Below are positions 6,413 through 11,088 of a stretch of DNA of 64,000 nucleotides, piece after piece. This stretch comes from Thermodesulfomicrobium sp. WS (lineage in GTDB: Bacteria > Desulfobacterota > Desulfovibrionia > Desulfovibrionales > Desulfomicrobiaceae). The translations under genes were made by a program, and so were the position numbers. The first letter of the stretch is position 1. Each line of letters starts with the position of its first letter. The stretch spans positions 868,001 through 932,000 of the forward strand of contig NZ_AP027130.1 of assembly GCF_027925145.1 (NCBI RefSeq), in the 5' to 3' direction. Below the pieces are notes generated by a model. The model was not told the DNA's origin, ran no database searches, and saw only the letters and a list, made by a program, of their open reading frames with translations.

Positions 6413-6569
6413 GACCTGGATGAGCTAGAGCCTGACGAGGGACGTGTCAAACCCAAGGCGGCAGGAAAATGGTTCGGCTTGAGGGAATTGGGCTTGTCTT
6501 TTGGCAGGGGGCGATTAGAGAAGGGATATGCCGCATGTGGCAGCGACCTTTTTTCAGGAGGGACGGAAT

Positions 6570-6743
6570 ATGTGTAAAGGTTGTGGTTGTGGGCGTGGGA
6601 CAGGTGCTGCGACGGTGACCAAGGTCGTCCAGCATGAGCATGAGCACCGGCACGGGGATATGGTGCACAGCCATCCCCATGATCATGAGCATGAGCACAC
6701 CCATGAGGGCGTGCCGGCCCATGACGATCATCGGCACGAGTAA
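6570..6743 (+). CDS. His-rich, CxxCxC metal-binding mini-protein
   Basis: A 57-residue protein starting at ATG 6570 behind a strong AGGAGGG ribosome site (an upstream in-frame ATG at 6528 lacks one). It opens MCKGCGCGRG, closely resembling the first residues of the hydrogenase nickel chaperone HypB (MCTTCGCG in E. coli). A tail follows with many histidines in HEHEH/HDHEHEH clusters. No GTPase domain follows, so this is a free-standing metal-binding peptide, plausibly for nickel or zinc storage or delivery. A strong terminator follows 20 bases after the stop, indicating a monocistronic unit. Confidence 0.75.
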   Translation: MCKGCGCGRGTGAATVTKVVQHEHEHRHGDMVHSHPHDHEHEHTHEGVPAHDDHRHE

Positions 6744-6762: not shown

Positions 6763-6798
6763 GACTGCGGCCGCCTGAAGGCGGCCGCAGTCGTTTTT
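6763..6798 (+). terminator. Strong rho-independent terminator
   Basis: A perfect 13-bp stem, GACTGCGGCCGCC, with a TGAA loop and its exact complement, is followed by GTTTTT. It ends the His-rich gene transcript. The minus-strand CoA-binding gene ends at 6811, so the hairpin may also serve that direction, although the opposite side lacks a long T-run. Confidence 0.9.
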
Positions 6799-6810: not shown

Positions 6811-7179
6811 TTAGAATTGCCCTGTGGAGAGGAGCACGAGGGTGCAGGCATGCTGCCAGACGATGCCGGCCTCGCTGAGGCGCGCTTCCAGCTCCGGGGA
6901 CTCGGTGCCGGGATTGAGGATGACCCGGCCCGGCCGCAGCCGGATGATGGCTTCGGCAAGCGGCAGGCTGTGTGTGGGGCTCACGTACACGGTGAGGGTA
7001 TCCACGGGCCGGGTGATTTCGTCGAGGCTGCGGGCCGTGGGGATGCCGTCGATGTCCGCCCGGGCAGGGTGCACGGGGATGACGTCGTGCCCGTGCTCCA
7101 TGAGGGCTTTGAGGGCCTTGTGGGAATAGCGCTCCGGCTTGGGACTGGCGCCGAGGATGGCCACGGTCTGGGTGCTCAT
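6811..7179 (-). CDS. CoA-binding domain protein (YccU-like)
   Basis: A 122-residue single Rossmann-fold domain. VAILGASPKPERYSHKA at the N terminus is the nucleotide/CoA-binding loop, and VYVSPTHSLPL plus VILNPGTESPELEARL are typical of the CoA_binding_2 family (YccU of E. coli). The molecular role of these stand-alone domains is not established. Its start overlaps the grpE stop by 4 bases, so it is probably co-translated with grpE. Confidence 0.88.
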   Translation of the reverse strand: MSTQTVAILGASPKPERYSHKALKALMEHGHDVIPVHPARADIDGIPTARSLDEITRPVDTLTVYVSPTHSLPLAEAIIRLRPGRVILNPGTESPELEARLSEAGIVWQHACTLVLLSTGQF

Positions 7180-9724: not shown

Positions 9725-10180
9725 ATGCAAATCGTTCTCTTTGAGCCGGAAATCCCCCCCAATACCGGCACCATCGCTCGCCTGTGCGCTGCCACGCAAA
9801 CGGTCCTCAACCTGGTGGAGCCGTTGGGCTTTAGCCTGGAAGATAGGTATCTTCGCCGCGCCGGGCTCGACTACTGGCCGCACGTGCCGCTGCGGGTGTG
9901 GCCGTCGTGGGAGGCCTTTCTTGCGGGCTGGGACGGCGGCCGCCTGGTGTGCTCCAGTGCCCGCGGCGGCACCCCGTACCACCAATTCGCCTTTCAGCCC
10001 GATGACGGCGTCGTCCTCGGGCCTGAGACCCGGGGACTGCCGGAACAGGTCACCCAGGGCCGCCCCGTGGTGCGTATCCCCATTTGGGGCCAGGTGCGCA
10101 GCCTCAATGTGGCCAACGCCGCCGCGGTGCTCTTGTACGAGGGCTTGCGTCAGGTGGGGGTCTTGGATTCGGTGGCATGA
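9725..10180 (+). CDS. trmL: tRNA (cytidine(34)-2'-O)-methyltransferase TrmL
   Basis: A 151-residue SPOUT-fold methyltransferase for wobble 2'-O-methylation of tRNA-Leu. Motifs are the N-terminal VLFEPEIPPNTGTIARL, the SAM-knot sequence VLGPETRGLP and the C-terminal IPIWGQVRSLNVANAAAVLLYE. ATG 9725 follows AGAGGA. Its stop overlaps the cbiB start by 4 bases. Confidence 0.92.
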   Translation: MQIVLFEPEIPPNTGTIARLCAATQTVLNLVEPLGFSLEDRYLRRAGLDYWPHVPLRVWPSWEAFLAGWDGGRLVCSSARGGTPYHQFAFQPDDGVVLGPETRGLPEQVTQGRPVVRIPIWGQVRSLNVANAAAVLLYEGLRQVGVLDSVA

Positions 10181-11088
10181 GCGAGGCACTGCTGCTTCTT
10201 GCGTGCGTACTCCTGGATTTGGTCGTGGGAGATCCACCGGGGTGGCCGCACCCGGTGCGGGTCATAGGGGCGTGTGCCGCGCGGCTCGAGCCCTGGGCCC
10301 AGAGATCGCCGCTTGTGCGCGGGGCCCTGGTCACGGTTGTCGTGGCCGCCGGGGCGGCGCTCGGGGCGCACGCGTTGATCTCCCTGCCGTGGGTGGGGAA
10401 GGTATTCGCCCTTTATCTGGGTTTTGCGGGCCTGGCCTTGGGGAGCCTGGTGCGGGAGGCGCGGCGGGTGCGCCGGGCGCTGGCTTGCGGCGACGCAGAT
10501 ACGGCGCGCCGCCTTTTGGCCTTTTTGGTGAGCCGGGAGACGGCGCATTTGGATGAAGCCGGCCTGGCCCGGGGGCTTGCGGAAACCCTGGCGGAAAACA
10601 CCACCGATGGCTTCGTGGCCCCGCTCTTTTGGCTGACCGTCGGCGGTGTGCCTGGGCTTTGGGCCTACAAGGCCGTCTCCACCCTGGATTCCATGTGGGG
10701 CTACCGTACCCCGCGTTTTGAGCGCTTGGGCAAGTGCGCGGCCCGCCTGGACGACCTTGCGGCATATCTCCCTGCCCGGTTGACGGCCTTGGCCATGGCG
10801 GGGGTGGCCTGGGTCTGGGGCCGCAGGATTTCTTTGTGCAGTGTCGCCCGGCAGGCCCGCGCCCTGGAGAGCCCCAATGCCGGCTGGCCCATGGCTGCGG
10901 CGGCTGCTGCCATCGGGGCTGGCATGGGCGGAGAGGACCGCTACGCAGGCCAGATCAAGCGCAAGCCGCTCTTGGGGCCTGCAGGGGTGCCGTGGACCGT
11001 GGAGCGGCTCGAAGAACTGGAGCGGTTGGTGGTGGCGGCGTCCCTGGGGGGTGCTGCCACTGCCGTGGTCTGGAAGCTCGTCGTTTAG
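10177..11088 (+). CDS. cbiB: Adenosylcobinamide-phosphate synthase
   Basis: A 303-residue membrane protein of the CbiB/CobD family, which joins aminopropanol (or its phosphate) to cobyric acid late in cobalamin synthesis. It has the N-terminal DLVVGDPPGWPHPVRVIG motif, ENTTDGFVAPLFW and the STLDSMWGYRTPRFERLGKCAARLDD region split across a loop. Several membrane helices are evident. No other cobalamin gene is adjacent and no cobalamin riboswitch can fit, because the gene overlaps trmL. Confidence 0.92.
   Translation: MSEALLLLACVLLDLVVGDPPGWPHPVRVIGACAARLEPWAQRSPLVRGALVTVVVAAGAALGAHALISLPWVGKVFALYLGFAGLALGSLVREARRVRRALACGDADTARRLLAFLVSRETAHLDEAGLARGLAETLAENTTDGFVAPLFWLTVGGVPGLWAYKAVSTLDSMWGYRTPRFERLGKCAARLDDLAAYLPARLTALAMAGVAWVWGRRISLCSVARQARALESPNAGWPMAAAAAAIGAGMGGEDRYAGQIKRKPLLGPAGVPWTVERLEELERLVVAASLGGAATAVVWKLVV

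Follow-up and report, generated by a model that had tools for sequence, protein, structure and literature searches.

A small open reading frame (positions 6570-6743) in the window, by which we mean the whole stretch of 64,000 nucleotides that was analysed, is a conserved gene beyond chance, and its product corresponds, judged by sequence comparison, to a HypB-type leader in the form of a free protein. The leader fused to HypB is already known; the new element is its occurrence as a separate protein, a novelty that is provisional since no description of a free HypB leader was found in the open literature searched. Why a tight N-terminal nickel site is present in some HypB proteins and missing from others is an unsettled question, and an order with leaderless HypBs, many members of which encode the leader separately, makes this question directly testable with the GTPase left untouched.

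The preliminary description had reported a 57-residue frame with a strong ribosome-binding site and a 13-bp terminator, and start, stop and length were found exactly as given. The deduced product reads MCKGCGC...HEHEHRHGDMVHSHPHDHEHEHTHE. Both expression signals were recovered as well (Table 1). The terminator arms (6763-6775 and 6780-6792) form 13 perfect pairs around a TGAA loop and are followed by GTTTTT; RNA folding extended the stem to 16 pairs; the stretch reached a dG of -45.5 kcal/mol (z = -5.7), and 0 of 200 shuffled sequences folded as well. Since the hairpin lies between convergent genes, the second being a CoA-binding-domain gene on the other strand that ends at 6811, it may serve both. 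GGAGG-type sites also precede most of the homologues at the loci read, and a hairpin with a T run also follows the homologues at L033 and L034. The high monocistronic expression claimed in addition gained no support from a search for a sigma-70 promoter-like site of the leader gene, which found none.

A HisJ/PHP-family gene lies upstream of the leader gene on the same strand, another neighbor is a small membrane-protein-like ORF on the opposite strand, and downstream the convergent CoA-binding-domain gene is accompanied by grpE. No metal or hydrogenase genes were found among these adjacent genes. The genome consists of one contig of 2.36 Mb and contains a single copy of the leader gene. Control by a riboswitch was considered and rejected, because NiCo, cobalamin and other regulatory RNAs are absent beside the leader gene in 17 loci; plasmid copies of the gene and relatives of the protein in the PDB were also looked for, with none found. 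We expect the peptide to be disordered. A CbiB/CobD-like cobalamin gene is located 3.4 kb downstream in the window (10171-11088, plus strand), and such a gene also lies within about 4 kb of the leader gene in the congener G002.

Table 1. Positions of the leader gene, its signals and the CbiX-CbiC fusions (window coordinates unless a locus is named)
Feature	Position	Strand	Remarks
Stand-alone HypB-leader-like ORF	6570..6743	+	57 aa; ATG 6570, TAA to 6743
Codons 1-7, MCKGCGC (Cys2, Cys5, Cys7, extreme N-terminus)	6570..6590	+	
His-rich segment, residues 22-56, HEHEHRHGDMVHSHPHDHEHEHTHE...	6633..6737	+	
Shine-Dalgarno AGGAGGG	6556..6562	+	7 nt 5' of ATG, by reading the sequence
Intrinsic-terminator hairpin, 13-bp GC-rich stem and T run	6763..6798	+	possibly common to the convergent gene
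CbiX-CbiC fusion	L101:1873-2853		
CbiX-CbiC fusion	L142:6855-7865		
CbiX-CbiC fusion	L143:7100-8080		
CbiX-CbiC fusion	L106:5286-6221		

A homologue with 95% identity occupies the same neighbourhood in a congener, and of the codon changes between the two frames 10 are synonymous and 3 non-synonymous. Among 12 sequences of genus g4, 408, 327 and 1473 differences fall on codon positions 1, 2 and 3, respectively. It is the mostly synonymous change in the congener together with the third-position bias in g4 that places the frame beyond a chance ORF.

The resemblance to the N-terminal extension of HypB, which the preliminary description had proposed, exceeds what composition alone would give. The window protein matches the NCBIfam model NF053667 (HypB_prefix_1) with 20.7 bits and an E value of 8.2e-4, which is below the curated cut-off of 30 bits. 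The same model is matched by 15 of the 16 aligned members, again below the cut-off (best E value 1.6e-4). The only further family match among the 16 was a weak one to a second HypB model, and matches to non-HypB families, including CbiX models, were absent from this set. With 57 residues, no Pfam match and no G3E P-loop GTPase domain the leader protein is not itself a HypB, and it is free-standing as had been stated, with no GTPase downstream. Using a profile built from 19 fused HypB leaders, the real members reached a median of 22.6 bits, compared with -8.6 bits for full shuffles, 6.2 bits for shuffles of the tail only and 4.8 bits for versions with Cys2, Cys5 and Cys7 exchanged for serine. 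An alignment with the fused HypB leader of L080 scored 148-161, whereas shuffled versions averaged 60-63 with an SD of 9 (a distance of about 10 SD), and the core HDHEHSHGDLTHSHPHxH is common to this fused leader and the Desulfomicrobium form. The far lower scores of the shuffled controls argue for a similarity to fused leaders that depends on the order of the residues and not on composition alone.

The conserved positions point in the same direction. The motif MCxxCxC (Cys2, Cys5, Cys7) stands at the extreme N-terminus, and M1, C2, C5 and C7 are invariant in a 22-sequence alignment and at all of 34 loci read. In the 16-sequence alignment H22, H24, E25, H26, H28, G29, H33, S34, H35, P36, H37, H39, H43, H54 and H56 are invariant as well. 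The leader of E. coli HypB (CXXCGC nickel site, HypB_prefix_1) has the same M-C-x-x-C-G-C start in the same order and spacing, and many HypBs share with the window protein a His-rich stretch after the Cys motif. Unlike a HypB leader, the window protein is free, has its own start, stop and terminator, is unlinked from the leaderless hypB and stays below the family cut-off.

The C-terminal tails of NikO/CbiO-type ECF ATPases (L083-L098) carry a core IIHEHxHRHGDxxHxHSH that resembles the His segment of the leader. In contrast to the window protein, these tails are C-terminal and fused and have no cysteine site; the NikO His-tails reached a median of 5.0 bits with the fused-leader profile.

The preliminary description had also raised the point whether the HypB of this genome lacks its His-rich extension, and the Cys/His extension is indeed absent. 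The single HypB, encoded just 3' of hypA and about 620 kb from the leader gene, begins MQVEVARNILEAND directly at the GTPase domain and has no leader. All 37 HypBs read from six families of the order are leaderless, whereas 19 HypBs read from elsewhere, namely from further families of the phylum and from three additional records, carry the leader fused. A HypB tree places the proteins of the order in a single clade, separate from the fused HypBs that were sampled; since the fused set was picked for having leaders, the tree does not date the leader loss. A HypB split specific to Desulfomicrobiaceae is not supported, since the HypBs read in the order are all leaderless and share this clade. Leaderless HypB also occurs in families f3, f4 and f6 and in genus g12, where the stand-alone leader was searched for and not found, and the leader is thus not an obligatory partner. 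In f5 genomes with a stand-alone leader, a hypB was looked for beside hydrogenase operons and not found.

Homologues, whose existence had been left to a search, do exist and are likewise free-standing. We searched 348 genomes of the order with profiles and then read the loci, leaving weak or internal His-rich matches out of the count. This revealed the stand-alone leader in 59 genomes: in 22 of 22 Desulfomicrobiaceae, in 5 genomes of family f2, one of them a Desulfonauticus, and as MCxxCxC-plus-His proteins in 32 genomes from 14 genera of family f5. The same searches did not find it in f3, f4, f6 or g12. Every f5 locus read shows the MCxxCxC start followed by a His-rich tail, with an overall length of 59-136 aa. 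Some f5 members have so little in common beyond this motif and the histidines that their common descent is no more than likely. Outside the order, a small free-standing protein, MCECCGGKRPQ...HDHDHDHQHGHGHDHHEHAHNHDHAPAAPRITVVEAAK, is encoded at about position 1500 of L119 (G112, a distant family of the phylum) and may be an independent stand-alone leader.

For the function of the free leader we tentatively propose an in-trans carrier and buffer of nickel, possibly of cobalt, with the HypA/HypB pathway, whose HypB is leaderless here, as the most likely client; this reading, drawn from analogy with fused leaders, falls just short of an even chance. That the protein is a cytosolic carrier or buffer of Ni(II) or Co(II) is likely, and a service in hydrogenase maturation is plausible. 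We infer metal binding, the identity of the metal, the cytosolic location and every client. In E. coli HypB, Ni(II) is bound with a sub-picomolar Kd by Cys2, Cys5, Cys7 and the amine of the N-terminus; other HypBs bind several nickel ions through their His-rich regions (PMC7055735). In the free leader a single tight Ni(II) site would consist of the amine and the three cysteines, and several Ni(II), Co(II) or Zn(II) ions would be bound more weakly by the His-rich tail. In Desulfomicrobiaceae and f2 the leader may also supply the cobalt chelatase CbiX.

Nickel is favored by the resemblance to HypB, by the leaderless HypB and by a NikK neighbor: in two f5 genera the gene for NikK, a component of nickel ECF transporters, lies convergently about 100 bp from the leader gene. 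Cobalt is favored by CbiX and B12 neighbors in two families, and a general store by the scattered genomic context. The genome of the window contains a NikK-M-L-Q-O-like transporter and large subunits of NiFe and NiFeSe hydrogenases, and in the Desulfonauticus genome urease genes are located further on in the contig of the leader. The role in hydrogenase maturation that had been suggested gained no support from gene context or distribution. Linkage of the leader gene to hyp or hydrogenase genes was seen at none of the loci read. With 96 of 101 relatives possessing NiFe hydrogenases, whether or not they have the leader, these enzymes are nearly universal and cannot discriminate; moreover, HypB lacks a leader even in families in which the stand-alone protein was not found. 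At two loci of genera g24 and g288 (L194, L160) genes for BioY and an ECF ATPase stand beside the leader for no obvious reason. As these ECF genes adjoin BioY-like genes and hence point to biotin, they were not counted as evidence for nickel.

Among the alternatives, the leader may donate or buffer metal for CbiX, the small cobaltochelatase in the anaerobic B12 pathway, an explanation that we consider unlikely. It would then be the in-trans version of the extension of Bacillus megaterium CbiX-L, a His-rich, Fe-S-bearing C-terminal extension proposed to serve in metal storage and delivery (PMC7689651). Like the window protein, this extension combines a cysteine motif with a His-rich region; it differs in being C-terminal and fused and in that its cysteines hold a 4Fe-4S center. 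In genus g4 (16 loci) the leader gene lies directly upstream of the gene for a small CbiX in the same direction. The gene orders are QueA, leader, Fe-S protein and CbiX in g2, with CbiX about 2 kb away, and QueA, leader and CbiX-CbiC in g3, about 2 kb apart. In f2, BtuF/BtuD-like genes adjoin the leader (G031, G043), and in G027 genes for CbiX-CbiC, CbiA and a BtuCDF-like transporter are found nearby. CbiX is present in 26 of the 27 leader-bearing f1 and f2 genomes, and the 101 relatives comprise 26 genomes with leader and CbiX, 10 with CbiX only, 7 with the leader only and 58 with neither. Fisher p-values for a co-occurrence of leader and CbiX are low, but they were computed before the f5 members were known and are not independent evidence, because f1 and f2 are neighbors in the HypB tree and the co-occurrence may be one shared event. 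Furthermore, six f5 genomes among the 101 relatives carry a stand-alone leader without CbiX, so that a restriction of the leader to CbiX-bearing clades had to be dropped. CbiX is also distant from the leader gene in the genus of the window, and the sequence resembles HypB and no CbiX model. The related idea that recruitment of a free HypB-type leader gave CbiX a dedicated metallochaperone, a cobalt donor for the anaerobic B12 pathway and thus a carrier common to nickel and cobalt cofactor assembly, appears slightly less probable still. Should the link to CbiX be real, the peptide would bear on the question how the chelatase of this pathway comes to receive cobalt and not a different metal.

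No more probable than the role as CbiX donor is a general store or detoxifier of nickel, zinc or cobalt of the Hpn kind, without a dedicated client. Hpn and Hpn-like of Helicobacter are described as small, free His-rich nickel-binding proteins (PMC4671568). The window protein is small, free and His-rich as well, from an unrelated lineage, and metal genes recur near the leader across the order without a single common partner. Divergent ZraP/ZraS/ZraR-like genes lie beside the leader gene in g4, and a CDF exporter gene is located just upstream of it in G064. Against such a store stand the invariant Cys2, Cys5 and Cys7 at the extreme N-terminus, which a mere store does not obviously need; to our knowledge, Hpn has no HypB-type N-terminal cysteine site. 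Convergence of an unrelated His-rich peptide on the HypB leader is very improbable, for although the proteins are short and of low complexity, match HypB_prefix_1 below its cut-off and in some f5 members are alike in little more than the motif and histidines, shuffles of the same composition score far lower, and both the N-terminal cysteine position and a core HEHxHGDxxHSHPHxH are common to fused HypB leaders.

The His-rich N-terminal regions of HypB from Bradyrhizobium japonicum and Rhizobium leguminosarum are thought to act as a nickel store or buffer (PMC7055735); in these proteins they belong to the GTPase itself, whereas the window protein is free.

Several observations were made beside these results. 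Upstream of the leader in g4 (L035-L050), TGTGCA/TGCACA repeats lie between a sigma-54-type promoter and the leader and are perhaps ZraR sites. Control of the leader by this promoter was rejected, because the conserved TGGCAC-N5-TGC faces the other way, toward the ZraP-like gene. CbiX is fused to CbiC (chelatase and precorrin-8X methylmutase) in f2 and g3, and CbiA adjoins in f2 loci. Near CbiX/CbiA, a CCG/heterodisulfide-reductase-like Fe-S protein is broken by a stop, with one in-frame TGA in L102 (8500-9800, minus strand), and is represented at the corresponding position by two ORFs in L101 (5038-6336) and L142 (10932-12260); a selenocysteine codon or a split gene would produce such a pattern. 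In the genome of the window the large subunit of a NiFeSe-type hydrogenase, whose reading frame contains a TGA (G000:C1:587834-588859, minus strand), lies near a NiFe large subunit at 592366.
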